Shown: positions 31,533-49,774 of the stretch, piece by piece
Position numbering within the stretch: position 1 is the stretch's first letter
How the letters are laid out: every line of letters begins with the position of its first letter
Notes under the pieces: model-generated
What the model was told of the DNA's origin: nothing
Databases searched by the model: none
Seen by the model: the letters and a program-made list of their open reading frames with translations, nothing else
DNA from: Candidatus Phycosocius bacilliformis
GTDB lineage: Bacteria; Pseudomonadota; Alphaproteobacteria; Caulobacterales; Aquidulcibacteraceae
Length of the DNA stretch: 64,000 nt
Direction of reading: 5' to 3'
NCBI RefSeq assembly: GCF_003112735.1
Contig: NZ_BFBR01000004.1
Location: 164,646-228,645 of the forward strand
Position numbers and translations under genes: made by a program

Positions 31533-32282
31533 CTAGCCCCGAATGGCTTTGTCCAAAGCTGCGGCCCCCTGCAAGATGAAATCATGGTCCGAGCCCAAAA
31601 CGAACAGGCTTGCGCCGCGGTCGCGCCAAAGTGGCACATCGCACGATCGCGCCAGAAACATGCCTGTAACCCGCCCTGCCGCCTGGCCAGCTGCGACAAT
31701 CTTTTCAACCGCTGCCACGACAATCGGATCATCGGGCGTGGCAGCACCATAGGCCACTGTGAGGTCCGCGCGACCGATGAACAAAGCATCAATACCGTCA
31801 ACACGGGCGATGGCCTCAATGTCCTCGACCGCCTCAACATCTTCAATCTGGGCAATTATCACGACATGCTTGGCCGCTTCGCGATGCTTGGTCATGCCCT
31901 TGGTGGTGTAGCCGGCCGCGCGGCTTGAACCGGCATAGCCGCGACCTCCTGGACCATAATGGCAGGCTTTAACAGCCTCTGCCGCCTCTTGCGCACTGCG
32001 GATATGGGGCAGAACCACGCCATCTGCCCCGCAATCAAGCGCATTGAGAATATGTTCATGACCGGAAGTCGGGGGACGCACCAGCACCGGCTTGGCATAG
32101 GACCGCGCTGCCAGAATGCACAGATCAAGGCTTGCCCGATCAAAAGGGGCATGCTCGGCATCCAAAACGAGGCAGTCCAGAGACGTGAGGCTGAGCACTT
32201 CGACAATGATTGGACTGGGCGTCTTGACCCAGGTCGCGGCAATGATGTCACCGGCGCGAAGCCTGTCGGCGAACGGATTCAT
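31533..32282 (-). CDS. HpcH/HpaI-type 2-oxo-acid aldolase
   Basis: This is a 249-residue class II aldolase of the HpcH/HpaI family, cleaving 4-hydroxy-2-oxo acids to pyruvate and an aldehyde. The ATG at 32282 overlaps the MetE-like stop (ATGA); upstream sequence in the same frame belongs to that gene. Landmarks are the catalytic DAEHAPFD (His44), VRPPTSGHEHILNALDCGADGVVLPHIRS, IAQIEDVEAV and FIGRADLTVAYG. Last gene of a five-gene overlapping operon with HisD-like, LacI, hydrolase and MetE-like genes. It probably performs the terminal carbon-carbon cleavage of the pathway. Confidence 0.87.
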   Translation of the reverse strand: MNPFADRLRAGDIIAATWVKTPSPIIVEVLSLTSLDCLVLDAEHAPFDRASLDLCILAARSYAKPVLVRPPTSGHEHILNALDCGADGVVLPHIRSAQEAAEAVKACHYGPGGRGYAGSSRAAGYTTKGMTKHREAAKHVVIIAQIEDVEAVEDIEAIARVDGIDALFIGRADLTVAYGAATPDDPIVVAAVEKIVAAGQAAGRVTGMFLARSCDVPLWRDRGASLFVLGSDHDFILQGAAALDKAIRG

Positions 32283-33430
32283 GCTGCCCGACCCCACAGC
32301 CGTGAACTCGCCAGAGCAGCCCCCTCCGCCAGGGTCTTGAGTTTGGCCCAAACGATATCGGGATCGACCGCGCCAAAGCCGGCGAAAGTCGAGAAGCCAC
32401 AATCGGTTCCGGCAATGACCCGGTCCCGCCCGACGATACCTGCAAAGCGCTCAATCCGTTCGCAAACCACACGCGGATGCTCGATAAAATTGGTTGTGGA
32501 GTCGATCACGCCCGGGATCAGGACTTTGTCCTCCGGAATGATATTGGCCATTTCCACGAAATAATTCCAATCGTGCTGGTGGCGGGGATTGGAAGTCTCA
32601 AACAACAGGCCAGCTGGTTTGGCGCGCATCAGAGTGGGCAGGATGACCCCCATTTCAACATCATGATGATGCGGTCCTTCATAATTCCCCCAACAGACAT
32701 GCATCCGAACCCGATCCGCCGGGACATTGCGGAGGGCGTGATTGAGCACCTCGACATGGGTCCCAATCAGTTTGAGATAATCAGCATCGGTCCGATCCTT
32801 ATACATCATATGCCGACCAAGCCCGAGATCGGGGCTATCAAGCTGAAGGATCAGCCCTGCGCCGACGATCGCCTCATACTCAGGCCGCATGGCCTCAGCG
32901 AGAGCTTCAAGATAGGCGTCTTGGGTCGGATAATGCTCATTGGGCTGGAACAGGGCGATAACGCCGGGGGAGGCAGCATTCATGAACCCGCCAACTGGCT
33001 TATACTTGGCCATGGCTGAGGCCATGAAGCCGAGATCGGCTTGCAGCGGCTCCATCGACTTGACGGCGACTGGGCCGATACATTTGGGCCGTCTGTAGGT
33101 GGGTGTCCCACCACTCGATGCCTGCCGCTTTAAAAATCCGGGGAAGGCCTCGAGGTCCGAGGGTGGGGTCCGTGGGCTGTCACCATCAAATCCCGTGATG
33201 CGATCTTTGATGTAGGTGGCATAGGAGATCTTCGACATTTCCCCGTCCGAGACCAGATCAATTCCAGCACGGACTTGTTGGGCAACAGTCTCATCCACGG
33301 CGCGACCAATCACATCATCAAACTCTGCCCGGTTAATGGGGTCGCCACGCTCAGCGGCAAAAATAAGGTCAGTCACCGCTTTGGAACGGGGCAAAGATCC
33401 GACATGTGTGGTGAGGATGTGCGCGCTCAT
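32279..33430 (-). CDS. MetE C-terminal-core zinc protein (methionine synthase II-like)
   Basis: This 383-residue protein corresponds only to the catalytic half of cobalamin-independent methionine synthase (MetE is about 750 residues). All four zinc ligands are visible: His244-x-Cys246 (MHVCWG), Glu278 (LFETSN) and Cys344 (GTDCGF). TTHVGSLPR starts the domain. Such stand-alone cores include alkyl transferases to thiols, such as epoxyalkane:CoM transferase. In this catabolic operon a methyl or thiol transfer on the substrate is more plausible than methionine synthesis. ATGA overlaps join it to both neighbours. Confidence 0.82.
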   Translation of the reverse strand: MSAHILTTHVGSLPRSKAVTDLIFAAERGDPINRAEFDDVIGRAVDETVAQQVRAGIDLVSDGEMSKISYATYIKDRITGFDGDSPRTPPSDLEAFPGFLKRQASSGGTPTYRRPKCIGPVAVKSMEPLQADLGFMASAMAKYKPVGGFMNAASPGVIALFQPNEHYPTQDAYLEALAEAMRPEYEAIVGAGLILQLDSPDLGLGRHMMYKDRTDADYLKLIGTHVEVLNHALRNVPADRVRMHVCWGNYEGPHHHDVEMGVILPTLMRAKPAGLLFETSNPRHQHDWNYFVEMANIIPEDKVLIPGVIDSTTNFIEHPRVVCERIERFAGIVGRDRVIAGTDCGFSTFAGFGAVDPDIVWAKLKTLAEGAALASSRLWGRAA

Positions 33431-34164
33431 GCATTGATCTCCTGATGAAGTTTGGTTGTTGGATGGACAAGCCAGTCCTCGATGGCGGCAGTGAAGGCTG
33501 CGGGCTGTTCCAGCGGCACGAGATGGCCAGCATCAGCAATCTCGACATAGCTTGCCCGACGGTGACGGGCGGCCATGGCCATATGCCAAGCCGGTGGGCA
33601 CAGGGTGTCATCACTGCCCGCGATGATCAGGCTGGGACCCGCAAAGCTGCCCAGCACGTCGCACAAGCCCGGACGGGTACGCAGTGCCTCACTTTGACGG
33701 AGGAAAGTCTCAGGGCCGAGATCAAGGCCCATCGCAAGTGTTAGATCCAGAATATCGCGGCGTCTTTCGCCCTGTGTGGCGGGGCTGAGATAATGAGGCT
33801 TAAGTTCGTCGCGCACGACTTTTTCCAAATCTCCGCCGCGGACCTGTGCCTGTTGAGTCAAGCGGGCCGCGGACCGCTCAGGCAGATCGGCCGTGCAATT
33901 GGTACTGGACAGGATCAGGCCCAAAACGCGTTCTGGCGCGAGTTTGGCCAGCATAAGGGCAACGATGGCCCCCATGGAAAAGCCAATTGGCACAATTGGG
34001 CCTGGAATTGTGTCGAGCAAATTGCGGGCTAACAGGTCGATGCGATCCAACACGTTGATCGTGGCATAGACGTGCGGGAATGAATTGATTGCGCCCAAAT
34101 CACGCCACAGCCTGCGATCACACATGTGACCGGGAATCCATACAAGGCTGGGCTGGCCACTCAC
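33427..34164 (-). CDS. Alpha/beta-fold hydrolase
   Basis: This is a 245-residue alpha/beta hydrolase starting at GTG (34164), overlapping the LacI stop (GTGA). The nucleophile elbow is GFSMGA, the acid lies near GSDDTLCPP and the catalytic His is in DAGHLVPLE. Probably an esterase or carbon-carbon hydrolase acting on an intermediate. It lies between the LacI regulator and the MetE-like gene in a chain of 4-nt overlaps. Substrate unknown. Confidence 0.82.
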   Translation of the reverse strand: MSGQPSLVWIPGHMCDRRLWRDLGAINSFPHVYATINVLDRIDLLARNLLDTIPGPIVPIGFSMGAIVALMLAKLAPERVLGLILSSTNCTADLPERSAARLTQQAQVRGGDLEKVVRDELKPHYLSPATQGERRRDILDLTLAMGLDLGPETFLRQSEALRTRPGLCDVLGSFAGPSLIIAGSDDTLCPPAWHMAMAARHRRASYVEIADAGHLVPLEQPAAFTAAIEDWLVHPTTKLHQEINA

Positions 34165-35195
34165 AACAGGCGTGCCGACCGCCCCGACAGCAATTCCCCC
34201 GCAAAGACGCGCTGTTCGGGTGAAATGTCCGGGCTTTCGATCCGCTCCAGCAACATGGCTACAGCGGCTTGGGTCATCCGGCGGACCGGCTGACGGATTG
34301 TGGTTAGCTGATAGGCCTCCCAGGTGGCGGGACTGACCCCGTCAAATCCTGTGATGGACAATTCCCCCGGAACTTTCCGGCCAATGATGTTTCGTGCTGT
34401 ATCCATCGCGCCAATGGCCATCAGATCATTGACGCAAATGAGGGCATCCAGCTGATTATCCGTCCGCGCCATCAAGGTTTTCAGCCCCTCGCCGCCACTT
34501 TCATAATCAAACTGACCCCGGACAAATTCAGCCTTTAGGCCATGGTGGGCAAGGCGGTTGATAGCAGCATTGGCGCGTTCTTCCCCGACATAGGAATCGG
34601 CGGGTCCGCCAATAATCCCGAAACGGCGATGTCCGGCCTGCACCAAACCATCGACCAAGGCACGTTCGCCCAAGTCAGAGTCACAGCAGACACTGGCCAC
34701 AGGGACCCCTTCGCCAATGCGGTTATACAGAACGAGGGGAACCCCACGATTGGCAAAGGCCGATAATTGCTCCGTAGACAGACGGGCTGCAACAATTGCC
34801 CCATCAACCCGGTAGCGCCAGACTTGCCCCAGGACCTCCTCGACGTCAGATTCAGCGGCAAGGCTGAACAAAAGGACGCGCACGCCGTGCTGGGAAAGGC
34901 GTTGGGTCAATTCAGCAAGGACTTCGGGATAATATAGATTGGTCAGGTTGGAAATAATGATCGCAACCAGATTTGAGCGCTTGGTGATTAGGCCTTGGGC
35001 AATGGCATTGGGCTCATAACCCAGTGCCTGCGCAGCCTCGACAATGCGGGCGCGTGTTGCGGGTGCCACAGAGGCCCCCTGACGGAAAGCCCGACTAACC
35101 GCGGACTGGGAGACCCCTGCCCGCCGGGCAACATCATAGGAAGTTACCCCAACCTTCTCGGTCATATTTGGATCAAGCGGCTTCTTTTTTGCCAT
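34161..35195 (-). CDS. LacI-family regulator embedded in catabolic operon
   Basis: This is a 344-residue LacI/GalR protein: [24 protein letters not shown], hinge [15 protein letters not shown], then a sugar-binding-type effector domain. I chose ATG 35195, overlapping the HisD stop by ~23 nt; ATG 35165 is an alternative and neither has a strong ribosome site. It is co-transcribed with the enzymes, so it is likely autoregulated. The 17-nt motif at 36515-36531, 40078-40094 and 42884-42900 is the probable operator, with a pathway intermediate as inducer. Confidence 0.87.
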
Positions 35196-36514: not shown

Positions 36515-36531
36515 AATGACTGCGAATGCAA
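36515..36531 (-). promoter_or_regulatory. Shared regulatory motif, site A (HisD-operon/SDR)
   Basis: AATGACTGCGAATGCAA lies between the divergent HisD-like and SDR genes. It differs by one base from site B. Read on the minus strand it begins TTGCAT, a plausible -35 for the HisD operon with a weak TAGCCT -10 downstream. Probable operator of the embedded LacI protein. Confidence 0.6.
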
Positions 36532-36566
36532 AGGCGAAATCGCGTGATAGTGAACAGGATGCAGTA

Positions 36567-37322
36567 ATGGGCACACAAACCAAGATTCCAAGCTGGGCTG
36601 CGGGCCTCTCAGGAGCCAGAGCGGTTGTAACAGGTGCCAGTCGGGGGCTGGGTGCTGCCATTGCGCTGGCTCTTGCAGAAGCCGGTGCCCACGTTCTGGC
36701 TGTGGCGCGCCACGCCGAGGAGCTGGAGGCGCTGGCAGCCCATCACACAGAGATTGAGCCGTGGGTCGGCGATGTTACCGACGCCGACTTTGTCGCAGAA
36801 CTTGCCGGCAAGGATATTGATATTCTTGTGAATAATGCTGGCACAAATCACCCCATGCTGATGGAAGACGTCGACACGCAGACGCTGGACCGCATGCTGA
36901 ATCTCAATGTGCGTGCGGCGTTTCTGGTGGCTCAAGCCGCAGTAAAATCTATGTTGGAGCATGGGCGAGGTGGCTCCATCATCAATGTCACCAGCCAGAT
37001 GGGCCATGTCGGCTCACCCAAACGCACCGTCTATTGCATGACCAAGCATGCGCTTGAAGGCCTGACCAAGGCCATGGCCGTCGAGCTTGCTCCACGCGGA
37101 ATACGGGTCAATTCCGTGGCACCCACCTTTATCGAAACCCCGATGACAAAGCCGATGCTGGATGATCCAGCCTTTATGGCCTTTGTGACCGACATGATCC
37201 CGCTGGGTCGACTGGGCCAACCCGAAGATGTCGCCGCAGCAATTGTCTATCTCGCCAGTCCGGCAGCCAAAATGGTAACCGGCACCAGCCTCTTGGTGGA
37301 TGGCGGCTGGACGGCGCGTTAG
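36567..37322 (+). CDS. Short-chain dehydrogenase/reductase
   Basis: This is a 251-residue classical SDR. The ATG at 36567 (MGTQTKIPSWA) has AGGA 8 nt upstream; in-frame starts at 36495 and 36516 would add a tail that overlaps the regulatory motif. Landmarks are the cofactor loop TGASRGLGAA, NNAG, active-site YCMTKHA and C-terminal DGGWTAR. It probably reduces or oxidises a hydroxyl of the pathway substrate, with NAD(H) or NADP(H). Divergent from the HisD-like operon. Confidence 0.87.
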   Translation: MGTQTKIPSWAAGLSGARAVVTGASRGLGAAIALALAEAGAHVLAVARHAEELEALAAHHTEIEPWVGDVTDADFVAELAGKDIDILVNNAGTNHPMLMEDVDTQTLDRMLNLNVRAAFLVAQAAVKSMLEHGRGGSIINVTSQMGHVGSPKRTVYCMTKHALEGLTKAMAVELAPRGIRVNSVAPTFIETPMTKPMLDDPAFMAFVTDMIPLGRLGQPEDVAAAIVYLASPAAKMVTGTSLLVDGGWTAR

Positions 37323-37331
37323 AGTGAAAAA

Positions 37332-37354
37332 GGGGCCGGTGCCAAACCGGCCCC
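37332..37354 (-). terminator. Intrinsic terminator of the second TonB receptor gene
   Basis: A 9-bp GC stem (GGGGCCGGT/ACCGGCCCC) with a 5-nt loop. On the minus strand it is followed directly by five Ts (37327-37331 complement), a classical terminator for the receptor gene. It also lies after the convergent SDR gene. Confidence 0.82.
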
Positions 37355-37385
37355 AGCCCCTTCACGGCATGTTATGAACAGATGA

Positions 37386-40034
37386 TCAGAAGCGCAGATT
37401 GGCTTTGATCCCCCAAAGTTTCGGGGGTGCATAGCTGGCCTGCAAGGCACCACCGCCACCCCAAACAAAGCGTTGGGCCGTGGCTTCATCGGTCACATTA
37501 TTGACGAAGGCCGCCAGCGACAAATTGTCATTAATGTCCCAAGTCACACGCAGATCGAGCTTGGTGTAGGCGTCCTGCTTGTCAAGGATCGAATTGGCTG
37601 GCTGGCCATAGAAGCCACTGTTGAAGGTCAGCACGGCCAGCGGCGTGACTTGTCCCAGACCACCCAGGTCAAAGACATATTGCGCCGAGAAGCTGCCCGA
37701 ATAATCCGAAGCATATGGCAGCTTTTTGCCCGTCAGGTCACAACCGAAAGCCAAGGCGGGTGCACCAGGCGCGCCCGTCCCAGTCCCCGGCACAGGACCG
37801 CATTTATAGCCAGGAGCAAAGATGCGACGCTGTCCGGCATTGGCAATGGTGACGCCATTCACAACAGTTGGGGTCAATTGGGTTGCATCAGCCACCACAA
37901 TCGAGGTCCCAAACGGCAGGGGCACATTGGTATAGTCGGTGTATTTGGCATCGAGTACCGACAGTGACAGGTTCAACGTGAGATCATCAATCGGCCGCCA
38001 CACAGCCTCGATTTCAGCCCCTTTTGCTTCTGCCTTCCCGCTGTTTTCAATGATCGACAAGGTGGTATTGCCGGCCGGAATCTGGCGCTGCTCTTGCAGG
38101 CTGTCATACTGATTGAAGAAGGCAGCAACATTCAGCTGCAAACTATTGTCGAGGAAGCGGTTCTTGCTGCCGATTTCATACGCCGTCACTTCTTCGGGCT
38201 TGAAGGTCGGGGTCAGCGCCGCCTGATTTTGACCAGAGTTGAAGCCACCCGAACGGAAGCCCGTCGACACCGAACCATAGATCAAGCGGTCCTCACTGAT
38301 CTGATAATCCGCTGCCAGACGCCATGTCAGCTTTTCAAACTCGGCTGTGTCATAGGTTGCCCCTGTCAGCACGGCCGGGTTGGACGCCAAGCAGGCAAAA
38401 CCCGGACGCGGCTGAATCGCCGTGGGTGCGAACACGCAATTGGTGGCTACCCCACGTGACCCAAAGGCACTGTCGGGAATGCCGCCGGTGCGCAGGGTAA
38501 TGGCAGTGCCGACTGGTGTGGGCGGGGTCCCTGTCAGGGGCAGAACCGCCGCAGCATTGGCGAAGCGGAAGTCCTTGGTGTCGCGGGTAAAGCGCAGGCC
38601 TGCGGTCAATTTCAGGGCTTCGGTAACCGCATATGTGCCTTGGGCATAAGCGGCAATCGACTTGGTGTCGGCACGCTGCTCATCATAGAAACCTGCCCCT
38701 GCAACAGGCAGGGATACCGGCGCACCAACACCCCGGACTGTGCGGGCGACCTGCTCGTTGATGAAGACGCCCCGCAGTTTATCGTCGAAATAATAGGCCC
38801 CAACCACATAGCTGAGCGGACCGTTCCCACGCGAAAGAACTTGCAATTCCTGGCTGAAGGTCTCAGCCGATGTCAGCTGGTAATCGGTGCCAATCGTACT
38901 GGCCGAAAAGTCAGTATCAGAGGTTCGCACCGCGACAAAATCGGCAAAGCCTGTGATCGACTTGATGGTGAAGCTGTCGAAATCATAGGTGATGTTTACA
39001 CTGGTATTCTTGGATGTGAGATCCAACACGGTTTTTTGGTCGGTATCAATCGTGTACGGATCACCAGCAGCAAACAACGGAATACCGGCATCAATCGTCA
39101 ATGGCGCATCGACCACGCCGTCACGGTTACCGCCACGCGTGTTTAGATTGCGGATCGGTGTTGCATTGAACAATTGCTGGTTGGACGGGACGTCAAAGAA
39201 CGTACCCACCAATTTATAGCCAAAGGCTGATCCGCCGGCACCACCCCGGCTTCCCCGGTCAATCTTGATTGTGGCGGTCAACCTGTCGGTCGGCTTCAGC
39301 AAGAGGGCCGCGCGAGCATAACGGGTGTTTTCGTCAAACAGATTATTGCCGCTTGGGTTCACGTTTTTGACGTAACCATCATCATCCTCAGACACACCAC
39401 TGATCCGCAGAGCAGCAATGTCAGACACAGGGATATTCACAAACGGCTCGATCCGCACCTTGTTATTCTCGCCGACCGTCACGTCGAGCCCCGCTTTGAA
39501 CTGGCCAAGCCGGGGCTGAGCGGTCGCAATCGAGATGTTTCCACCGAACGTATTGCGGCCATACAAGGTGCCCTGAGGCCCACGCAGCACTTCAACACGC
39601 TCAAGATCGACAAAGCCCAAAGTGGCTTGGGCGGCGCGCGACTGATAGACCCCGTCAATAAAGAAGCCGATGGTGGTATCGCCATTGACGCCAACATTTT
39701 CAGTGCGAACACCGCGTATGGCCGGACGCGCATCCACGCCCGAACGGCCGAAAGTCAAACCAGGGACCGCATTCTCCAGACGCGACATATCGGTCAAACC
39801 GCGCGACTGGATCTGAGCCGCGCTAAAGGCCGAAACCGACAGCGGGACATTCTGCAGGTTTTCTTCCCGACGCTGGGCAGTCACAACCACCGTCTCAATC
39901 CCGCGCTCGGGCTCGGCCGTGGCTTCAGATGTGCTTTGCTGGGCGAAGGCTGGGGTCGCGACCACAAATGCCAAGCCTGAAATGGTTGCTAAAAGAGTCT
40001 TTCTTGTCGCGTGAGTGACGAAATCATTAAGCAT
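37386..40034 (-). CDS. TonB-dependent receptor (FecA/FyuA-like)
   Basis: This is an 882-residue outer-membrane receptor from the ATG at 40034, which has a GGGGGAT purine stretch upstream and gives signal ...FVVATPAFAQQ. The plug begins VVVTAQRREENLQNVPLSVSAFSA and contains RGVRTE and LRGPQGTLYGRNTFGG. The barrel ends in Phe. This receptor type in sphingomonads and Caulobacterales often imports aromatic, terpenoid or other small hydrophobic compounds. Its promoter carries site B of the shared motif, tying it to the LacI-controlled catabolic island. Confidence 0.9.
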   Translation of the reverse strand: MLNDFVTHATRKTLLATISGLAFVVATPAFAQQSTSEATAEPERGIETVVVTAQRREENLQNVPLSVSAFSAAQIQSRGLTDMSRLENAVPGLTFGRSGVDARPAIRGVRTENVGVNGDTTIGFFIDGVYQSRAAQATLGFVDLERVEVLRGPQGTLYGRNTFGGNISIATAQPRLGQFKAGLDVTVGENNKVRIEPFVNIPVSDIAALRISGVSEDDDGYVKNVNPSGNNLFDENTRYARAALLLKPTDRLTATIKIDRGSRGGAGGSAFGYKLVGTFFDVPSNQQLFNATPIRNLNTRGGNRDGVVDAPLTIDAGIPLFAAGDPYTIDTDQKTVLDLTSKNTSVNITYDFDSFTIKSITGFADFVAVRTSDTDFSASTIGTDYQLTSAETFSQELQVLSRGNGPLSYVVGAYYFDDKLRGVFINEQVARTVRGVGAPVSLPVAGAGFYDEQRADTKSIAAYAQGTYAVTEALKLTAGLRFTRDTKDFRFANAAAVLPLTGTPPTPVGTAITLRTGGIPDSAFGSRGVATNCVFAPTAIQPRPGFACLASNPAVLTGATYDTAEFEKLTWRLAADYQISEDRLIYGSVSTGFRSGGFNSGQNQAALTPTFKPEEVTAYEIGSKNRFLDNSLQLNVAAFFNQYDSLQEQRQIPAGNTTLSIIENSGKAEAKGAEIEAVWRPIDDLTLNLSLSVLDAKYTDYTNVPLPFGTSIVVADATQLTPTVVNGVTIANAGQRRIFAPGYKCGPVPGTGTGAPGAPALAFGCDLTGKKLPYASDYSGSFSAQYVFDLGGLGQVTPLAVLTFNSGFYGQPANSILDKQDAYTKLDLRVTWDINDNLSLAAFVNNVTDEATAQRFVWGGGGALQASYAPPKLWGIKANLRF

Positions 40035-40071
40035 CGCAAGATCCCCCTCGGTTTTTCGTGCAAAGATATGA

Positions 40072-40094
40072 TTGCATAATGACTTCGAATGCAA
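40072..40094 (-). promoter_or_regulatory. Shared regulatory motif, site B (TonB receptor)
   Basis: The site holds AATGACTTCGAATGCAA (40078-40094) and a wider inverted repeat with outer arms TTGCAT/ATGCAA 11 nt apart. On the minus strand TTGCAT followed after 17 nt by TCATAT makes a promoter, with the symmetric core in the spacer. It ends 38 nt before the receptor start. Operator function inferred from recurrence. Confidence 0.62.
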
Positions 40095-40256
40095 GCAGAA
40101 TTTATCAGGCTGATCCCAACCCCAGACACAAAAATGGGCACTTACGCACGAGAATCAGACAAGTGTTGCAGAATTGTCGACACGGCCCGCGTCCATAGAC
40201 GGTGGCGTACTGATTGCTGGATCGATTATACGCATGCGCATGCAAGCCTGATGAGA

Positions 40257-41861
40257 TCAGACCATATGCTCAAACAGCGCAAGCCCCACCAAGGTTGCCG
40301 CCAGATAGGCCAAGAGCCAAAGGCTTTGCCGATCAATCGCGCCGGGCATGGTGTTCCAATTGCCATCCTTGAGCGGTCTGCCCTCGCGCGCAAAGCGGGC
40401 TTGCTGGCCCGGCACCGAGAAAGGTGACCATTCGGCTTGCTTGCCGTCGAGCAGGCGGCTGGCCGTCCAGCCCACAACAATGGTAGCTGTTCCTCCGATC
40501 AGGCAGAACCAGGGCCATGCAATCTCGGTCTGCGTGGCCACAAACGAAATGATGGCAAAGCCCGCCACCACACCTACCATGAGGCCACGTTCGGTGGTGT
40601 GTTTGGAAAAAAATCCCAAGCCATACATGCCGAGCTTGGCACCGACAAAATAGCTGCCAATCTTGCTTAAGACCTCAAGGATCGAGCCGCTGGACTGGGC
40701 ATAGAGGATCGCCGGGCCAATGATGATGACAGCCCACAACACTGTCGCATACCGGGTCGCGCGCAAATAATGGGCATCATCGCCATCTTTCTTGAAGTAG
40801 CGTTGGTAGAAGTCGACGACACTGGCGGTTGCCATGGAGTTAAACGCCGAACTTAAAGTCGACATAGAGGCAGCAAGGACTGCCGCGGCCAAAATGCCCA
40901 GAAGGCCTGGAACGCCTGATTCAGCGGCAAATTGCAGAATGATCTGATTGGGCTGATCAAATGGCTTACCGTCATAATAGCCATAAGCCAGCACACCGAT
41001 GAAAAAGAAGAGGAAATAGATTGGAAACGCGGCATAGCCCATCAACAGATAGGATTTCTTGGCATCGCCAATACTCTTGGCCCCCAGCGTGCGCTGAACC
41101 ATCATTTGGTTGGCACCATAGACAGTGATGTGGAACAGCGTCATGCCCAAAAGGCCTGAATAGATCGTTGTGGCGACGGTTGGGTCCGGGGTTGTGTCAA
41201 TCGCGCTGAGGCGTCCCAATTGCTTCAGATGCGCCAATACCTCACCGACCGGGGTGGGCATGGATACAAATAAAGCGATCAGAATGATGATCGCGCCACC
41301 AAACAATACAACGGCCTGAAAGACATCGGTCCAGATCACAGCAAGCATGCCGCCCATGGTTGTGTAAATCAGCGCCATAATGGTGATGATGACCACAGCC
41401 GCAGGAATGGAAATGCCGGTGATAAACTTCAACACAAGGGCCGTGGCAAACAGAATGGCTGCGGTGGAAAGTCCCTGCGTCACCAAAAAGATCGACGACA
41501 TCACGGCCCGCGAAAGCTGACCAAACCGGCGCTCTTGATATTCATAGATCGAGGCGACGCCACTCATGTAAAAGAAGGGCAGGAAAAAGCCGGTTACAAG
41601 AATGATAACAATCGGATAGTTCAGATGTATGGCCAGAGCTGCCAGACCGTCCTTATAGGCCCAAGCCGGTGCACCCAGGAATGACAGCGCACTGATATAG
41701 GTTGCAATCACAGACAGGCCGATGGCCCACCAAGGTGTGTTGCCGCTGCCGAGATTAAATTCCTTCGCGGTGGTGACTTTGCGGCCAAGAATATAGCCAA
41801 GCACCAGATTGCCGATCAAAAAGGCGATAACGATTGCCCAATCCAGTGCTTCAAATTTCAT
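40257..41861 (-). CDS. Sodium:solute symporter (SSS family)
   Basis: This is a 534-residue integral membrane protein with about 13 hydrophobic helices in SSS order. The N-terminus reads DWAIVIAFLIGNLVLGYILGRK with ATYISALSFLGAPAWAYKDG after it, and YQRRF-like loop YEYQERRFG follows helix 3. It should carry the pathway substrate or an intermediate across the inner membrane, complementing the TonB receptor. The start overlaps the SnoaL-like gene stop (ATGA), so both share a transcript controlled from site C. Confidence 0.87.
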   Translation of the reverse strand: MKFEALDWAIVIAFLIGNLVLGYILGRKVTTAKEFNLGSGNTPWWAIGLSVIATYISALSFLGAPAWAYKDGLAALAIHLNYPIVIILVTGFFLPFFYMSGVASIYEYQERRFGQLSRAVMSSIFLVTQGLSTAAILFATALVLKFITGISIPAAVVIITIMALIYTTMGGMLAVIWTDVFQAVVLFGGAIIILIALFVSMPTPVGEVLAHLKQLGRLSAIDTTPDPTVATTIYSGLLGMTLFHITVYGANQMMVQRTLGAKSIGDAKKSYLLMGYAAFPIYFLFFFIGVLAYGYYDGKPFDQPNQIILQFAAESGVPGLLGILAAAVLAASMSTLSSAFNSMATASVVDFYQRYFKKDGDDAHYLRATRYATVLWAVIIIGPAILYAQSSGSILEVLSKIGSYFVGAKLGMYGLGFFSKHTTERGLMVGVVAGFAIISFVATQTEIAWPWFCLIGGTATIVVGWTASRLLDGKQAEWSPFSVPGQQARFAREGRPLKDGNWNTMPGAIDRQSLWLLAYLAATLVGLALFEHMV

Positions 41862-42871
41862 TGTGTCCCCCGCGGCTCCGCCGATGCACCAAGGTCAGCA
41901 AACAGATCAATGCCAAATTGTTTGAGAAGATCGACCATGTCGATGAAGACCCAATTCTCGTCCAAGAAATCCCCGTCACGACGCCAGAAGTCCATCACCC
42001 GCATCGTGATACGCTTGCCCGTTGCGCTCAGCCCCAGCCAGCCGTCTCCGGCATGCGTGGCATTGATGCTGGGCCATCCCGAGGACGCGACATAAGTCCC
42101 CTCGCCAATCCGGCAGCGATGATTGCCGCCGATCCGGTCAGGGAAGGCGGTCAGAAATGGGCGCTGGTGGGTTTGTTCATAATTGTGGTGACCACGGGCG
42201 CTGCCAATGCCACCTGGGCCGTACCAATAAAATTCTGGCGTCCAAAACTGCGTCATCCCCATGCTTTTGAGGGATTTTCCATCATAACGCATCAGACCTG
42301 CAATCATGGCCTCGACCAGCTTCAAGCTCTTGTCACCCTCCGTAGGGTCGATGCCCACAAGCCCCAGCCCATCCTGCGTCCGCGGCACCGGCGACCACGT
42401 TTCGCCCAATTGCGCCCGCAGAGGCCAGGCACCACACTCAATCAGCAAGCGGGCGATATCAAGAAGGACAATGCTTTCAACCACCTGCCCCTGTTCAACC
42501 CGCTCAAACCAGCCAAAACGTAGCCAGTGGAATCGCGATGTCGGCTTAAGTCCGAAAAATGGCCTGTCGAAACGACCGACCAGCCAGCCATAACTGGCCA
42601 GCCAGTCACCGCCCTTAAACTGGCCCTGCAACAAAATGTCTGTTCGCCGCTCAAGACCTGAAAAGGAGGCCAGAAGAGGCGCGAAGAAATGCTGCTTGAT
42701 GGCCTCGCGCCCCACCAGAGCATCTCCGGCACTGCGGTCGAACGGCGCACAGACAGATAGCGTTGCATTGGACGCATAAAGATGCCCCAGCAAGCGATCG
42801 ACATGGGTCGCCATGTCGCTGTTGGTTTGCAAAATCTGCCAGTAATCGCGCTTCAGGTTTTTTGGATCGAT
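41858..42871 (-). CDS. Double SnoaL/NTF2-like domain protein
   Basis: This ~337-residue protein is apparently made of two NTF2/SnoaL-like alpha+beta barrels. The C-terminal half (GSARGHHNYEQTHQRPFLTAFPDRIGG ... MRVMDFWRRDGDFLDENWVFIDMVDLLKQFGIDLF) reads like a SnoaL ester-cyclase. The N-terminal half is more divergent. Such folds act as cyclases, isomerases, hydratases or epoxide hydrolases. I show the ATG at 42871; ATG 42883 or one near 42814 are alternatives, and none has a ribosome site. Coupled to the symporter gene. Biochemical step unknown. Confidence 0.7.
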   Translation of the reverse strand: MDPKNLKRDYWQILQTNSDMATHVDRLLGHLYASNATLSVCAPFDRSAGDALVGREAIKQHFFAPLLASFSGLERRTDILLQGQFKGGDWLASYGWLVGRFDRPFFGLKPTSRFHWLRFGWFERVEQGQVVESIVLLDIARLLIECGAWPLRAQLGETWSPVPRTQDGLGLVGIDPTEGDKSLKLVEAMIAGLMRYDGKSLKSMGMTQFWTPEFYWYGPGGIGSARGHHNYEQTHQRPFLTAFPDRIGGNHRCRIGEGTYVASSGWPSINATHAGDGWLGLSATGKRITMRVMDFWRRDGDFLDENWVFIDMVDLLKQFGIDLFADLGASAEPRGTQ

Positions 42872-42883
42872 CATCCAAAGCAT

Positions 42884-42900
42884 ATTGACTTCGAATGCAA
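42884..42900 (-). promoter_or_regulatory. Shared regulatory motif, site C (SnoaL/symporter and cupin genes)
   Basis: ATTGACTTCGAATGCAA, one base different from site B, with outer GCAT/ATGC arms at the same 11-nt spacing (42880-42897). It overlaps the apparent start codons of both divergent genes. So one or both starts are misplaced or the messages are leaderless. Same orientation as sites A and B relative to minus-strand operons. Confidence 0.6.
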
Positions 42901-43931
42901 CGGTCGTAAACCCTTATTTTGAGGCCCGACGCTTTTGGGGTGTTGAAAATGTCTGTGGACTGGCAGGCTCAGCTGATTGGATGGTTTGGGTGACCCAAGA
43001 TTTTGTCTCTACCGCCCCAGAATCGCAGGACTTAACGACACGGCGGGATTGGGAAGCGCGACTTGTCCGCTATGTTGATCTGCGTCCCTGCTACAACGCC
43101 TTTATCGACTGCAGAACACCTGGGTCTGAAGCCAAGGAAAATTTCACCATTATTGGGCCGGGCGTCTCGGAGAACCCAGAACAATATGTTCATATTGCCG
43201 AACCGCACGGCTTTAACATCGGTGGCGCACGCCAGCCGCCCGCCTGTGTCAATTCCCAACACAGCCATGACACCGCAGAAGTGTTTCTGGTGCATTCGGG
43301 GCACTGGCGTTTTGACCTTGGTGAGTATGGTCAAGATGCGCAGGTCAAACTGGGGCCTGGGGATGTCATTTCCATTCCCACCGGCATGTTCCGTGGCTTT
43401 ACCAATATCGGAAGCGATACGGGGTTTCTTTGGGCCGTGTTGGGCGAAGATGATCCCGGTCGCGTCTTGTGGGCCCCGGAGGTCTTTCGGCTCGCCCGCG
43501 AACATGGGCTCGTGCTGTTGGAATCAGGCCAACTGATTGATACGATTGCCGGTCAAAAAGTTCCCCCAGACGCTGCCATCATGCCGGAAACCACTGCTGA
43601 GCAAGTTGCCGCTTTACACGTGCCAAGTGCTGCGGAGGCAGCAGGCTTTGTGGCCAAGGCCAAACCTGGCTCGCACCCGATCATCCATAAGGATGGCATA
43701 TTGCGCGGCGAACATGGCTTCTCCCTGTCGCAAGTCAGCCTTAAGCCGGGTGATTTGCTGACCGATTGTGCCGGCAGCGTTATCTTCATTCATCAAGGTG
43801 CCGCCAAGCTGGTGTGCGATGATGGCGCCTTGGATCTTGCCGCGGGCGATACTTTGTCCATACCCCTGGGTCGCCAGCCTGCTATCATTGCCGCAGCCGA
43901 CAGCCTCATTCATGTCGTGAAGAAAGTTTGA
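42885..43931 (+). CDS. Double-cupin protein
   Basis: This is a 348-residue protein starting at a TTG without ribosome site; later in-frame starts would remove conserved-looking sequence (VNPYFEARRFWG). Residues ~115-195 form a cupin with metal-type residues (NSQHSHDTAEVFLVHSGHW ... PGDVISIPTGMFRG). A second, more degenerate cupin is near 270-345 (LKPGDLLTDCAGSVIFIHQG). It resembles gentisate-dioxygenase-like or isomerase cupins, but function is unassigned. It leads a plus-strand operon with two SnoaL-like genes. Confidence 0.72.
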   Translation: MTSNATVVNPYFEARRFWGVENVCGLAGSADWMVWVTQDFVSTAPESQDLTTRRDWEARLVRYVDLRPCYNAFIDCRTPGSEAKENFTIIGPGVSENPEQYVHIAEPHGFNIGGARQPPACVNSQHSHDTAEVFLVHSGHWRFDLGEYGQDAQVKLGPGDVISIPTGMFRGFTNIGSDTGFLWAVLGEDDPGRVLWAPEVFRLAREHGLVLLESGQLIDTIAGQKVPPDAAIMPETTAEQVAALHVPSAAEAAGFVAKAKPGSHPIIHKDGILRGEHGFSLSQVSLKPGDLLTDCAGSVIFIHQGAAKLVCDDGALDLAAGDTLSIPLGRQPAIIAAADSLIHVVKKV

Positions 43932-43938
43932 AGCCGCG

Positions 43939-45003
43939 ATGACTGCTTTGGGCCTCTATGGCCGTGACATTTCTGACCTGTTAGGTCCCCAAGGACCCCG
44001 ACGACAGCCCTTGCAAGGCTTTGATGATCTCTATGTCGATATTGTGGATTATATCATCCGCTGCACCCATCGGATCTGGGAAGAAAAAGATATAGGCCTG
44101 ATCACCACCCATTATGGTGCCGATTGTCCGATCCATTTGATGAGTGGGGAAGTCGCCGGGGTCGATGGCGTGATTGCCGGGACGTTGAAGACGCTCAATA
44201 GTTTTCCCGACCGAACTCTGGTCGGTGAAGCGGTCATTTGGTCGGGGAACGAAACGGCGGGCTATCACTCATCCCATCGCATCACCAGTCATGCCACCCA
44301 TCTTGGCGATGGCGAATTTGGGCCCCCAACTGGGCGGCAAGTCTGTTTTACCACCATCGCTGACTGCTTGTGCCGCGAAAATCGCATCATTGAAGAATGG
44401 CTCGTCCGGGACAATGCGAAGATCGCCCGTGACTTGGGCTTATGCGCGAAAACCTTAGGCCAGGCACAAGCCACGCTTTCGCCAGCTGCGCGTCTGGGTA
44501 TTGCTGATTGGCGCCAGCGGCACATGGACGACATCCTATCCCAGAACATGCCGGCATTCTCCACGCCGACCTTCCCCAATCCTGCTGATAAGCCTGAAGA
44601 ATTTGCGCATCTGGTCTTCGCGCAAATCTGGAATTTGAGGCGGTTGGCGCGGGTGCGGGAGGTTTATGCCCCCCATGCGCATTGGGCAGGCCCTGACGCG
44701 CGCTACTTGTTTGGGCATGGTGAGATTTCAGGATGGATTGGCGCGCTCCTCTCAATGTCCCAAGGTGCACGGATACGGGTGGATCACGTCGGCGCAGTCC
44801 AAGAAGGTCCCTATACCGACATTGCGGTCCGCTGGAGTCTGGCCGGACGCCACGACAGCACCGGACTCTATGGATCAGCAACCGGAGTGCCGCTTTATAT
44901 CCTCGCGGTCAGTCACTGGCGCACATTGGACGGTGTGATTGTGGACGAGACAACGATTTTTGATGAGATCGCCCTGTGGCACCAGCTGAGTGGCGGGTCG
45001 TGA
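43939..45003 (+). CDS. Double SnoaL/NTF2-like domain protein
   Basis: This is a 354-residue protein 7 nt after the cupin gene. Residues ~30-170 look like a SnoaL/ester-cyclase domain (RIWEEKDIGLITTHYGADCPIHL ... IIEEWLVRDN). Residues ~205-345 look like a second NTF2-like domain (VFAQIWNLRRLARVREVYAPHAHWAGP ... HWRTLDGVIVDETTIFDEIAL). Same two-domain plan as the minus-strand neighbour, so probably a paralogue. Possible cyclisation, hydration or isomerisation step. Confidence 0.72.
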   Translation: MTALGLYGRDISDLLGPQGPRRQPLQGFDDLYVDIVDYIIRCTHRIWEEKDIGLITTHYGADCPIHLMSGEVAGVDGVIAGTLKTLNSFPDRTLVGEAVIWSGNETAGYHSSHRITSHATHLGDGEFGPPTGRQVCFTTIADCLCRENRIIEEWLVRDNAKIARDLGLCAKTLGQAQATLSPAARLGIADWRQRHMDDILSQNMPAFSTPTFPNPADKPEEFAHLVFAQIWNLRRLARVREVYAPHAHWAGPDARYLFGHGEISGWIGALLSMSQGARIRVDHVGAVQEGPYTDIAVRWSLAGRHDSTGLYGSATGVPLYILAVSHWRTLDGVIVDETTIFDEIALWHQLSGGS

Positions 45004-45008
45004 CAGCC

Positions 45009-45740
45009 ATGACTTTTGTTGACCTGCTCAGCGCACTTTATCTCGATCACGATGTTGCAGCCCTTGATCGGCTCTATCTGCACCGCGCCATTCGGCGGCA
45101 GCAGGGTGGGCGGCTGTTCGGGCGAAGCGCCATTCGTCAGGCAATTCTGTCAGACTTGGCCCGGTTTGAAGGCTGGGACGTGACCATACATGCCGGAACC
45201 GACACATTTGTCGATCTGGAATGGCTATCGCCCGATGGCGTCCGGGTTCGCCGACACCATTGGGCCTGGTACGAGAATGATCGCATCGCTGCCGATGTGG
45301 TGATTACGCAGGGAAAAGCCGAAACACCGCTTTCTACCCATCATGGCCTTTTGGGTGAGTTGGATTCTGGGCGCGGGCAAATCGGACCTGGGCCGCTATC
45401 GGGCTTTAGCGAGACAAGTTGTCAGCTTCACACACTCTGGAATGGCCGGTCCCTGGCAAGCCTCAAACAGCTTTATCACGACGGGCTGGTCTGGCAGGGC
45501 CCTGAGGATCGTGGCGGTCTCCGTGATCTGAAGGCATGGTGGTTGAAGCAGTTTTTGACCTATCCCCAGTCGCACATCATTTTTGAACGTGAAGTCGCCT
45601 TTGGGGGCCATATCGCCCTGCTCTGGCAATGGGGCCGCATTGATGGGCAAGGCGTACGAACCCGCGTGACCGGCAGCAGTCTTCTGAACAGTGTGGATGG
45701 CAGAATTGCCGTTGAGACCCTGCTCACCGACGAGGGCTAA
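45009..45740 (+). CDS. SnoaL/NTF2-like protein, shorter
   Basis: This is a 243-residue protein, third of the SnoaL-like set. The ATG at 45009 follows the previous stop; a GTG at 45000 overlapping that stop (GTGA) is equally possible. Residues 1-110 (LLSALYLDHDVAALDRLYLHRAIRR ... WAWYENDRIAADVVITQG) and 135-235 (LASLKQLYHDGLVWQGPEDRGG ... GRIAVETLLTDEG) each look like an NTF2-type fold. Function unknown; context suggests the same pathway. Confidence 0.62.
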   Translation: MTFVDLLSALYLDHDVAALDRLYLHRAIRRQQGGRLFGRSAIRQAILSDLARFEGWDVTIHAGTDTFVDLEWLSPDGVRVRRHHWAWYENDRIAADVVITQGKAETPLSTHHGLLGELDSGRGQIGPGPLSGFSETSCQLHTLWNGRSLASLKQLYHDGLVWQGPEDRGGLRDLKAWWLKQFLTYPQSHIIFEREVAFGGHIALLWQWGRIDGQGVRTRVTGSSLLNSVDGRIAVETLLTDEG

Positions 45741-45758: not shown

Positions 45759-46544
45759 CTAACGCGCCATGCATCCACCATCGACAGGCACAATCGTGCC
45801 AGTCAGGAAGGACGCTTGCTCTGAGATCAGAAAAGCAAAAACACTGGCGATCTCGTCGGGTTGGGCATAGCGGCCCATCGGTATACCTTGGGTGAAGATT
45901 GGCCGGGCGGCTTGAGGATTGTCGGGCATCACCGCGCGCTCTGCATAGGCCATCATGTCCGTGTCCGTTGGAGACGGACACACGGCTACAACCCGCACCC
46001 CAAGTGGCGCATAATGGACCGCAGCCGATTTCGTCATGCCAATGACCGCATGCTTGCTGGCGGTATAAGCAAAGATATTGCCGCCCCCACCGAGCCCGCT
46101 GATTGAAGCAACATTGACGATCACACCCCGGCCCTGCTGGCTTAGGTGCTGGCCGACATATTTGAGGCCGAGATAGACCCCCCGTGCATTGATCGCCATG
46201 ACCCTGTCGAAGTCTGCTTCCTCATAGCGTGAGACCGGCTGTGCTGGCCCCGATATCCCGGCATTTGAGAACAAAAAGTCCAGCCGACCAAAATGATCGA
46301 GGGCGCTGGCCACGGCCTGTTGCCAAGCCAGACTTTCACAAACATCGCCAATAAAGGCACGGATTTGCACATGATCGGGTGTTGGAATGGTTTTGAGCTC
46401 TTCGGCCCATGCCGGATCGACGTCCCATGCCAGCACATGCACACCTTCGTCGATCATTCGGTGCAAGGCAGCCCGGCCGATGCCGCGGGCTGCCCCGGTG
46501 ATCATGGCCACCCGCCCAAGCAATCCCAAATTAGTGTTCGCCAT
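45759..46544 (-). CDS. Short-chain dehydrogenase/reductase
   Basis: This is a 261-residue classical SDR from ATG 46544 (MANTNLGLLGRVAMITGAARGIG), with AAGGA 7 nt upstream. It overlaps the upstream hydrolase stop by ~12 nt. Landmarks are the cofactor loop TGAARGIGRA, SNAG, active-site YTASKHA and C-terminal DGGCMAR. Last gene of the VOC/hydrolase/SDR operon. Likely an NAD-dependent alcohol dehydrogenase of the pathway. Confidence 0.87.
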   Translation of the reverse strand: MANTNLGLLGRVAMITGAARGIGRAALHRMIDEGVHVLAWDVDPAWAEELKTIPTPDHVQIRAFIGDVCESLAWQQAVASALDHFGRLDFLFSNAGISGPAQPVSRYEEADFDRVMAINARGVYLGLKYVGQHLSQQGRGVIVNVASISGLGGGGNIFAYTASKHAVIGMTKSAAVHYAPLGVRVVAVCPSPTDTDMMAYAERAVMPDNPQAARPIFTQGIPMGRYAQPDEIASVFAFLISEQASFLTGTIVPVDGGCMAR

Positions 46545-47466
46545 CATCGTGTCCTTGATCAAGAAAACCAGCCATAGCGGCCGCCACGCGGGCCGGTGCA
46601 TCACGTAGGGGATTGTGCCCGATATCGGGCAGACATGCGACAGTCAGCTGGTTGAAATAACTGGCCATGGCCTCACGCGTTTTGGCTGTAAAGACAGGAT
46701 CAGCCTCCCCCCAGATCAGAAGCGTGGGTGCCGTGACGTGCCAATCGCCTGCCTGCACCCAATCAGGCAGGTCAGGACCCACGTCAAGGTCAAATGGGCT
46801 GGCCCGATACCAGTCAATCGCCGCCCGCCAACGATCGGGGTCCGCCCAGGCCTTGGCATAAAGTGCGGCTTCATCGGCCGGCATACGACCATCACTGGCG
46901 GCTTGTTGGAACCAGGCTGTAAACGGATTGCTGCTGGGGTCGCGTTGCCAAGCAGCTTCCAACGCCCCAGACTTAAACCCAGCCATATAGGCTGAGGCCG
47001 CCCGCTGATCACCGTCTAGGATCAAGGCTTTCTGTAGGGCTGCAGGATGAACCGCATTTATCAAAATGAGTTGGTGTACGTGCTCAGGAAAGCGAGCCGC
47101 AAACCAAGCGGCCAAGACCCCACCCCAATCATGACCGGCCAGAACCACACGGCCTGTTTGGGAATGGACCATGATCAGTTCTTTGATATCCCCCAATAGG
47201 CGTTCGGGGGCGTAGGCGTCCAAGCCTTCAGGCTTGTCTGAAAGATGATAACCGCGCTGGTCAGGCATGATGTAGAGCCTGTCGGCTGGCAAGTGACGAA
47301 CCGTTTCGCGCCAGATCGTCCAGATATCGGGAAATCCATGAAGACACAGGACAGGCAGGGCAGACCCATTTCCCCCGACCCTGCGCGCGACATGCAATCG
47401 CACCGAGTTGATGGACTGAAAGCCAGTCTGAAAAAGCTCCCCATCCGTCAGGCCGGGACCGATCAT
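46531..47466 (-). CDS. Epoxide-hydrolase-like alpha/beta hydrolase
   Basis: This is a 311-residue alpha/beta hydrolase with the soluble epoxide hydrolase pattern: oxyanion HGFPDIWTIWR, DQRGYHLSDKP, nucleophile Asp in GHDWGG, acid near WGEADPVF and His in LPDIGHNP. An Asp nucleophile separates it from serine esterases; haloalkane dehalogenase is the main alternative. Start overlaps the VOC gene stop (ATGA). It may open an epoxide formed or imported in this pathway. Confidence 0.82.
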   Translation of the reverse strand: MIGPGLTDGELFQTGFQSINSVRLHVARRVGGNGSALPVLCLHGFPDIWTIWRETVRHLPADRLYIMPDQRGYHLSDKPEGLDAYAPERLLGDIKELIMVHSQTGRVVLAGHDWGGVLAAWFAARFPEHVHQLILINAVHPAALQKALILDGDQRAASAYMAGFKSGALEAAWQRDPSSNPFTAWFQQAASDGRMPADEAALYAKAWADPDRWRAAIDWYRASPFDLDVGPDLPDWVQAGDWHVTAPTLLIWGEADPVFTAKTREAMASYFNQLTVACLPDIGHNPLRDAPARVAAAMAGFLDQGHDDGEH

Positions 47467-48443
47467 CCACCGACCCCGGTGTTATTGCGGCTGCGGTAAT
47501 AGTGCGCAACCAGCTGATCAATCTGGGCAGGCAGATCCTTTCCGCTCACCCAATCAAGTGAGAGATGCTCATGGCCGGGGAGCACTTGGAGAAGCTCAAA
47601 AACATTGCCGTCCGGGTCTCGGCCATAAACAAAGCGAACGGCTCCATTGCTCATCGGCGGGCTGTGAAACGCCACCCCGGCCGCCATCAGGCGGTGGTAG
47701 TCAGCATCAAGATCATCGACTTCCAGCGCAAAATGGCTCCAGCCCAGGCCAGAGGCATCCGCTTTGGGTTTGGATAAAGTCGGTGGCTGATGATATTGCC
47801 AAAACTCAAGCGTCAAGGGGCCTGCTTTGACCCAAGCCCCGTCAAAGACAATATCATCCAAGCCAGCAACCACATCATATTTGCGATTTGGGCCAAAGTG
47901 GCCCGAAGCATGCACGGGTGCACCTGTCACCTCTGCGTAGAAATCTGAGAGGCGTTTGATATCAGGCGTGACCAAAGCCACATGGGCAAACCAAGGCGGG
48001 CTTTCGACGCCTTCAGCATAAGGCAGACCTTCAAGCTCGAGGATATTGTCCTCAGGGTCCCGCACGTAACAATAGAGATTGCCGGTGCCCAGTCCTGAAG
48101 GCCTCGCGTGGCTCTTGGCCCCGGCGGAGACTAGGTCATCATAGAGCTGGTTGCCGTCCACTGCTTGGATGCATATGTGGCGCAGGCCAGCCTCAAAAAC
48201 ATTGGGCCGCCCATGGCTCGGTGTGGGAAAGGCGAATTCAAATAATTCTAAAAACCCGGTCGGACCGCGCAAGAGCGCAATCTCGCACTGGGAATTGGCC
48301 ACCCCCATCATCACCCGTAAATCGGTACGATCTGGCACGGCGAAGCGACTGATCAGCTCAAAGGCTTGCGCACTCTGATAGAAAGCCATCGCCGCTTCAA
48401 GATTTGCCACACTCAGACCTGCATGGTGCAATCCTTTGATCAC
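47463..48443 (-). CDS. Two-domain VOC (glyoxalase/extradiol-dioxygenase fold) protein
   Basis: This is a 326-residue vicinal-oxygen-chelate protein. I start at GTG 48443 (MIKGLHHAGLSVANLEAAMAFYQ), which has GGGAG 7 nt upstream; the frame stays open to 48659 but that part lacks VOC features. The first module spans ~1-120 and the second ~140-300 (WFAHVALVTPDIKRLSDFYAEVTG ... DPDGNVFELLQVLPGHEH). Possible metal residues are His6 and the Glu residues in LELEGL and VFELLQ. Could be a ring-cleavage dioxygenase or a lyase/isomerase. First gene of a three-gene operon facing the LysR gene. Confidence 0.78.
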   Translation of the reverse strand: MIKGLHHAGLSVANLEAAMAFYQSAQAFELISRFAVPDRTDLRVMMGVANSQCEIALLRGPTGFLELFEFAFPTPSHGRPNVFEAGLRHICIQAVDGNQLYDDLVSAGAKSHARPSGLGTGNLYCYVRDPEDNILELEGLPYAEGVESPPWFAHVALVTPDIKRLSDFYAEVTGAPVHASGHFGPNRKYDVVAGLDDIVFDGAWVKAGPLTLEFWQYHQPPTLSKPKADASGLGWSHFALEVDDLDADYHRLMAAGVAFHSPPMSNGAVRFVYGRDPDGNVFELLQVLPGHEHLSLDWVSGKDLPAQIDQLVAHYYRSRNNTGVGG

Positions 48444-48720
48444 GCTGAAGCTCCCTATCGGTCGCACGGGTTCGCCCGGCGGGTCTTTATGGTCCAGCGC
48501 GATGGTAACCGCCGTCCCAACTCGGTCAAGCACAAACGACCGGACACATTGAACGGCCTCTGTCCCAAGTCTGGGCCCAAGCCAGCGACGTGTCGTTTTT
48601 TTCAGGCTCAACGTGACATGCTTAGTGGGCAGCCTCTCTGAAGATACGTGCCGCAGCATGCAGGGCTGTTTAATGGCAGGATGAAGCCTTCAAGGAATAG
48701 GCGGCTTACGCCTGACGGAC

Positions 48721-49608
48721 CTAGGCACCATAGCCCCGGCAAAGCTCTGCCGCGAGAAAGTCATAGACCCGCCGGACGCGGCGGCTCGTCCGTAACTCGG
48801 CGTGACACGTCAGCCAGATCGGCAAGTCGGCCAGGGATTGGTGTGGTAAAACCGCCACGATATCAGGTGCATAATCGCCGACCTCCCTTTGGATAAAGCC
48901 GATCCCAAATCCGGCCAACACCATCTGCCACTGAACATGGCGACTGTCACAGCGAAAGCGAAAGGTTTCAGGCCGTAGATCAACACCCGCCGCCTTGAAA
49001 CCATCCTCAATCTCGGTGTTGCGATCGCCGCAGATTAAGACATGATTGTTCAAGTCCTCCGGGGACTGCGGTATGCCGTGACGGTCAAGATAATTCCGTG
49101 CAGCATACATACCGATTTTGACAGATCCCACCTTCCTCGTGATCAATTCTGCTTGGGTAGGGCGGAACATACGCACCGCAATATCGGCTTCGCGCATCAA
49201 AAGATTGGAAGATTGGTCCGAAGAGACCAACTCAATTGTTATCTCGGGCTCAAGCTGATTGAGTCTGGTCAAAAGAGGCGGCAAGACCCACGTCGCCATG
49301 ATGTCGCTGGCTGAAATCCGGATGGTGCCAGCGATCGACTCAGCCTGACCAACGGCTGTTAGGGCAAAGCGTTTGGATGCCTCGCCCATGCGCCGGGCCT
49401 CTTCATACAGAGCAACGCCGGTTGGTGTCAGCACAAGGCCTGACCCGGTGCGGTCAAACAATTGAACACCAAGCTTGGCCTCCAACACCGCCATATGACG
49501 GCTCATTGTTGGTTGACTGCCACGTGCCAGGCGCGCGGCACCGGCCAGCGAGCCGGCTTCCACAACCGCCGTAAAGGATTGAATCAGGGACCAGTCGAGA
49601 GTCTGCAT
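48721..49608 (-). CDS. LysR-family transcriptional regulator
   Basis: This is a 295-residue LysR regulator from ATG 49608, preceded by AAAGGTGA. N-terminal HTH: QSFTAVVEAGSLAGAARLARGSQPTMSRHMAVLEAKLGVQLFDR. The effector domain follows (GTIRISASDIMATWVLPPLL ... DIAVRMFRP). It reads in the same direction as the VOC operon, whose start is ~280 bp beyond its 3' end, so it is not a classical divergent pair and its target is uncertain. Confidence 0.88.
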   Translation of the reverse strand: MQTLDWSLIQSFTAVVEAGSLAGAARLARGSQPTMSRHMAVLEAKLGVQLFDRTGSGLVLTPTGVALYEEARRMGEASKRFALTAVGQAESIAGTIRISASDIMATWVLPPLLTRLNQLEPEITIELVSSDQSSNLLMREADIAVRMFRPTQAELITRKVGSVKIGMYAARNYLDRHGIPQSPEDLNNHVLICGDRNTEIEDGFKAAGVDLRPETFRFRCDSRHVQWQMVLAGFGIGFIQREVGDYAPDIVAVLPHQSLADLPIWLTCHAELRTSRRVRRVYDFLAAELCRGYGA

Positions 49609-49774
49609 CGCGTCACCTTTCCACGGCAATTCATTCAAAAATGAATGCTGATTATTCAATTTAAGTCAATCGCATCCAGATTTGATTAGTGCGACGGTCG
49701 CACGACCCGCCAACCCAAGGCCAACCAGCAGATTTTGAGATGACACCTCGCTGTTGTTGCCTGAACGGAAAGAC

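Follow-up and report, generated by a model that had tools for sequence, protein, structure and literature searches.

The catabolic island and its operator-like sites

The 64,000-nucleotide stretch of the Candidatus Phycosocius bacilliformis genome analysed here (contig NZ_BFBR01000004.1, positions 164,646 to 228,645; hereafter the window) carries an apparently uncharacterised catabolic cluster encoding a LacI-family regulator, HisD-like and SDR dehydrogenases, MetE-like, aldolase, hydrolase, cupin and SnoaL proteins, a TonB receptor and a symporter. Within this island, a 17-nt motif recurs before several transcription units. We discuss this motif as the probable operator of the regulator encoded by the same cluster, which would turn a bare repeated word into a testable regulon. 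The sites and the genes around them are as follows.

36515-36531 (16-bp core 36516-36531), minus strand: candidate operator site A, between hisD and SDR1; six genomes agree in 14 of 17 columns
40078-40094 (core 40079-40094), minus strand: candidate operator site B, before the TonB receptor; six genomes agree in 16 of 17 columns
42884-42900 (core 42885-42900), minus strand: candidate operator site C, between SnoaL1 and cupin; all 17 columns and the next 18 invariant
34161-35195, minus strand: regulator of the LacI family, predicted to bind A, B and C; PF00356 (LacI) 47.7 bits, PF13377 (Peripla_BP_3) 85.8 bits
35173-36462, minus strand: HisD-like dehydrogenase (Pfam Histidinol_dh), which opens the operon that contains lacI
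33427-34164, minus strand: alpha/beta hydrolase, hisD-lacI operon
32279-33430, minus strand: MetE-like protein, hisD-lacI operon
31533-32282, minus strand: HpcH/HpaI aldolase, hisD-lacI operon
36567-37322, plus strand: SDR dehydrogenase (SDR1), divergent from hisD across site A
37386-40034, minus strand: TonB-dependent receptor, behind site B
41858-42874, minus strand: SnoaL1, behind site C; start uncertain, 42874 likely
40257-41861, minus strand: sodium:solute symporter, behind SnoaL1 in the site C unit
42981-43931, plus strand: cupin, divergent from SnoaL1 across site C
43939-45003, plus strand: SnoaL2, after cupin
44976-45740, plus strand: SnoaL3, after SnoaL2

The product of 34161-35195 combines a helix-turn-helix with a periplasmic-binding-protein-like effector domain, the architecture of LacI-family transcription factors. 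All gene starts used for spacing are our own reading; that of hisD is a TTG at 36462 with AGGAGG ahead of it. On these starts, the centre of site A lies 61 bp from hisD (36462) and 43 bp from SDR1 (36567), that of site B 52 bp from the TonB receptor (40034), and that of site C 88 bp from cupin and 18 bp from the likely start of SnoaL1. The preliminary description of this DNA had placed each site directly upstream of a minus-strand unit. This holds for the hisD operon, the TonB receptor and the SnoaL/symporter pair, but not if these are taken as the sole targets, since site A also faces the plus-strand SDR gene and site C the plus-strand cupin gene.

Shape and rarity of the motif

The motif occurs at 36515, 40078 and 42884 with at most one mismatch at each position and in the same orientation throughout, as had been described. 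At up to three mismatches the window holds these three matches against 0.19 expected, and none of 100 shuffles gave three. In the whole genome (3.33 Mb in 21 contigs), WWTGACTNCGAATGCAA has 53 matches at up to three mismatches: the three island sites at zero, none at one or two, and 50 at three, compared with 28 matches for its backward control. The motif is therefore not scattered, and the three sites are the only ones at zero to two mismatches.

The motif's core, a near-palindrome of 16 bp around a central CG, reads (A/T)TGACT(T/G)C followed by GAATGCAA; the dyad centre is the CG of TTCGAA, or of TGCGAA at site A. Ravcheev et al. (2014; PMC4052901) count 1251 even palindromes among 1303 LacI motifs, and 1173 with CG at the centre. 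Even palindromes of 16-22 bp with a central CG being the usual shape of LacI-family operators, the 16-bp, CG-centred motif of the island conforms to it. A weak operator-like word of 15.2 bits at 51430-51459, between NmrA-like and AraC-type genes, is near chance expectation and was set aside.

Conservation within the genus

An ortholog of lacI (E<=1e-60) is found in 6 of 60 genomes of the family, all of a single genus and including that of the window. Without mismatch, WTGACTKCGAATGCAA is confined to the same six genomes (sites B and C in all, site A in four); at one mismatch, eight more genomes of the family have one match each. Site A reads TGACTGCGAAGTCA in two congeners, with GTCA in place of TGCA on the right, and the change gives another recognised half. 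In the six-genome alignment the near-invariant sites stand out from the stretch between site B and element D (40106-40229), whose mean pairwise identity is 54%. The preliminary description had further reported conserved outer GCAT/ATGC arms at sites B and C. The GCAT arm is present in the window, but it is lost at B in all five congeners and at C in one of five, and we rejected the arms as a recognition element.

A further conserved element, absent from the preliminary description, lies between site B and the symporter gene:

40230-40245, minus strand: element D, a weaker operator-like sequence of 13.5 bits; all 15 columns from 40231 to 40245 invariant

Element D reads ACGCATGCGCATGCAA and lies 151 bp from site B in the window. 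The distance is 151-152 bp in five congeners, although D is weak and the genomes differ by few indels. In the whole genome the 14-base core of D has one match at zero mismatches and three at one. D may be an auxiliary operator.

At site C the genus alignment shows about 35 invariant bases (42884-42918). The likely start of SnoaL1 nearby has no preceding ribosome-binding site, and the region 42868-42918 may hold overlapping divergent promoters or give rise to a leaderless message.

Conservation beside lacI relatives outside the genus

A search with the LacI protein returned 78 loci, five from the genus, 72 from outside it (50-73% identity, median 56%) and one from Bacillus (26%), the last without a match in a first pattern scan. 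The out-of-genus loci include close relatives, so that counts drawn from them are not independent. A symmetric matrix built from four words of this genus and applied at a threshold of 15 bits finds 226 sites, spread over 67 of these 72 loci, whereas 200 matrices with permuted half-site columns give on average 7.9 sites in 7.0 loci. The motif is thus kept beside orthologous regulators, where the preliminary description had proposed to look for it. Among the 226 sites, 212 are placed close to a cluster-gene start (at most 300 bp upstream, with a tolerance of 75 bp), four within a cluster gene and ten elsewhere.

The cluster itself is found again in Aquidulcibacter, sphingomonads, Woeseiaceae and Betaproteobacteria. 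Wherever the motif accompanies lacI relatives of Alpha-, Beta- and Gammaproteobacteria, it does so at the cluster genes already seen in the window. Neighbours of lacI in the 72 loci and the frequency of an upstream site are given below; the TonB query used for this map carried one extra residue before its start.

lacI: site upstream in 35 of 72
SnoaL2: present in 64, site upstream in 30
aldolase: present in 62, site upstream in 1
MetE-like: present in 60, site upstream in 2
cupin: present in 59, site upstream in 41
HisD-like: present in 57, site upstream in 29
TonB receptor: present in 56, site upstream in 50
SnoaL1: present in 51, site upstream in 26
hydrolase: present in 46, site upstream in 9
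SDR: present in 45, site upstream in 26
symporter: present in 23, site upstream in 6

Three loci carrying the cluster are titled Maricaulis salignorans (L068), Actinobacteria (L090) and Chloroflexi (L138); wrong bin names or gene transfer are possible.

Connecting the motif to this LacI

Among 299 genomes of the order, 21 encode a lacI relative (E<=1e-70). The strict pattern WTGMMTTCGAAKKCAW is found in 18 of these (62 sites) against 24 of the 278 lacI-negative genomes (28 sites). Its backward control appears in only 2 of the 299 genomes, and the pattern consequently has a background of its own. In the five genomes with five or six sites, 25 of 28 sites are on the lacI contig, at most 16 kb from lacI, and three are on other contigs.

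The recognition helix is SQS(A/G)VSR, and the Q and S of VSQSxVSR, the next R and the hinge leucine are identical in 70 of 70 proteins, the helix-turn-helix having been extracted in 70 of 77 loci by an expression that fixes V-S-x3-V-S. The genome encodes four LacI genes, and the 3.1-kb neighbourhoods of the other three contain no site. We also compared seven plasmid hisD loci chosen among 15 listed of 381 hisD records. Two hisD relatives without a LacI match have no site, a locus with a 55% identical LacI has several, and among four with a LacI of 35-39% identity two have sites before hisD.

Taken as a whole, these comparisons lead us to propose, with a probability of about 0.88, that the LacI-family protein encoded at 34161-35195 uses the motif at A, B and C as its operator. 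The candidate binder named in the preliminary description is supported by the 67 of 72 out-of-genus loci, by the 212 of 226 sites at cluster genes and by the uneven distribution of the strict pattern over lacI-positive and lacI-negative genomes, all of which are sequence comparisons.

Alternative explanations

Several observations weigh against this assignment. Five of the 72 out-of-genus loci have no site at 15 bits, and the permuted matrices reach maxima of 80 sites and 42 loci. The strict pattern is missing from three of the 21 lacI-positive genomes, while its occurrence in lacI-negative ones exceeds the backward control, and two of the four hisD loci with a 35-39% identical LacI lack a site. 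Site C, 18 bp from the likely SnoaL1 start, is nearer to it than is usual: in PMC4052901 more than 75% of LacI sites are located 140-30 bp upstream of the start. LacI could also activate in place of repressing. Most generally, the cluster genes travel with lacI, and co-occurrence alone therefore cannot single this protein out: the sites might belong to another regulator travelling with the island, such as the LysR protein encoded at 48721-49659, or to another LacI of the genome. We regard this as improbable. No LysR gene was found across five congener stretches, one of which stops short of the position concerned, and of the 72 out-of-genus loci 1 has it; the surroundings of the other LacI genes are devoid of sites, and dyads with a central CG fit LacI.

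The motif could instead be a promoter element only, with the TTGCAT common to all three sites serving as -35 box of the minus-strand genes. Their shared orientation agrees with this, and so does an excess, at spacer 17, of hexamers with at least four matches to TATAAT (among 108 de-duplicated sites, 16% versus 5% for the mirrored side). Set against this, the mean TATAAT similarity at that spacer is 1.84 versus 1.70. Conservation extends over the whole 16-bp dyad and not over one hexamer, and the pattern tracks the lacI relative. The case for a -35 role of TTGCAT is weak and, overlap with a -35 box being compatible with an operator role, we consider a purely promoter function very unlikely. A coding coincidence is less credible still. 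Site A overlaps a plus-strand ATG at 36516 and site C a TTG at 42885, from which plus-strand genes sharing an N-terminal MT(S/A)NA peptide might start. In the window both frames are open, and four of five congeners keep the one at A open as well. The fifth, however, has an in-frame TAG after A, a stop or frameshift follows C in four of five (the frame being open in the remaining one), and site B has no such gene. The congener alignment led us to reject the shared peptide, which is refuted for site C.

Proposed regulon and mechanism

Returning to LacI as the binder, a dimer would, by analogy with other members of the family, occupy sites A, B and C and repress five units: hisD-lacI-hydrolase-metE-like-aldolase, SDR, TonB receptor, SnoaL1-symporter and cupin-SnoaL2-SnoaL3. 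With A and C lying between divergent genes, the SDR and cupin/SnoaL units on the plus strand are probable further members of the regulon; as the leaders of the plus-strand frames are noncoding, both sites can serve both directions. We infer that repression would last until a catabolite binds the sugar-binding-protein-like domain of the LacI held at A-C and causes its release. Since lacI lies within the operon behind site A, the regulator would be expected to limit its own expression, and D could act as an auxiliary operator.

Neither solved-structure relatives nor the literature indicated a substrate for the cluster. The nearest solved relative of the HisD-like protein is sulfopropanediol 3-dehydrogenase. 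We do not propose sulfopropanediol as substrate because no sulfonate-cleaving enzyme was recognised in the island, although no search was aimed at one. The operator offers a way to gather the complete gene set and, via the inducer, to identify the substrate.

Unequal operator halves

Operator halves were sorted as TGCAT, TGACT or TGTACT in 211 sites, 167 of which were left after dropping similar flanks. These comprise 118 mixed sites (TGCAT with another half), 43 symmetric TGCAT sites and six without TGCAT. Random pairing predicts 79 mixed sites, and none of 20000 shuffles reaches 118; in the subset formed by loci L068-L101 and the window, 39 are mixed against 28 expected, a value reached by 38 of 20000 shuffles. 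Units containing lacI have 22 symmetric and 16 mixed sites, other units 20 and 100 (Fisher p 3e-6; the tally omits the six sites without a TGCAT half and three without an assigned gene).

It is conceivable, if doubtful, that this LacI group uses deliberately unequal operators at structural genes (a TTGCATTC half with a TTGACTTC or TGTACTTC half) and symmetric ones mainly where lacI is in the unit, the choice of half-site grading repression. Two points speak against such a design: the correction for shared ancestry was incomplete, and in the window site A, before the lacI operon, is itself mixed. The unequal half-sites bear on how a homodimer reads DNA. A rule by which the TGCAT half points away from the gene holds only in part: away and toward counts are 31 and 15 for single-direction genes within 130 bp, 3 and 4 beyond that distance, and 48 and 15 for divergent ones.

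Comparison with known systems

The arrangement resembles the local LacI-family regulons treated in PMC4052901 in that the regulator is encoded inside the cluster it would control, the operator is an even palindrome with a central CG, sites precede several units and self-control is likely. The sections of that paper available to us name no such cluster. The gene content here looks unlike plain sugar use and the operator halves are mostly unequal. The literature searched contained no match to the motif strings and, for the gene combination, returned no matching paper or entries apparently unrelated. A local LacI regulon is of an ordinary kind; the operator and the pathway are apparently undescribed.

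A more distant parallel is offered by four plasmid loci of Mesorhizobium, Roseomonas, Delftia and Variovorax (L174-L177), in which a HisD-like gene 73% identical lies beside a LacI gene, accompanied in three of four by an SDR gene 51-59% identical. Their three readable recognition helices are SQSAVSR, and in two loci TTGCATACGTATGCAA-type sites immediately precede hisD (L175:9965; L177:9936 and 9962). They differ in that their LacI proteins are 35-39% identical, the operator centre is TACGTA and not TTCGAA, the transport genes are others, and two of the four show no site at the 15-bit threshold. Since these relatives keep the recognition helix and have TTGCATACGTATGCAA-type sites, only the operator centre seems to change. 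The closest solved sequence relative of the island LacI is CcpA of Bacillus (PDB 1zvv, 1rzr; E about 1e-36), whose biology is different.

Neighbouring genes

A block of SDR2, hydrolase, VOC and LysR genes (45759-49659) adjoins the regulon and is not conserved with it: its hydrolase, VOC and LysR genes were not found in the five congener stretches (with the same early end of one stretch), and SDR2, like LysR, occurs in 1 of 72 out-of-genus loci. The block looks like a separate insertion and not part of the regulon. On the other side of the island, a long protein with a glycine-rich repeat region is encoded at 24214-27687, and a further very large one follows at 27687-30917.

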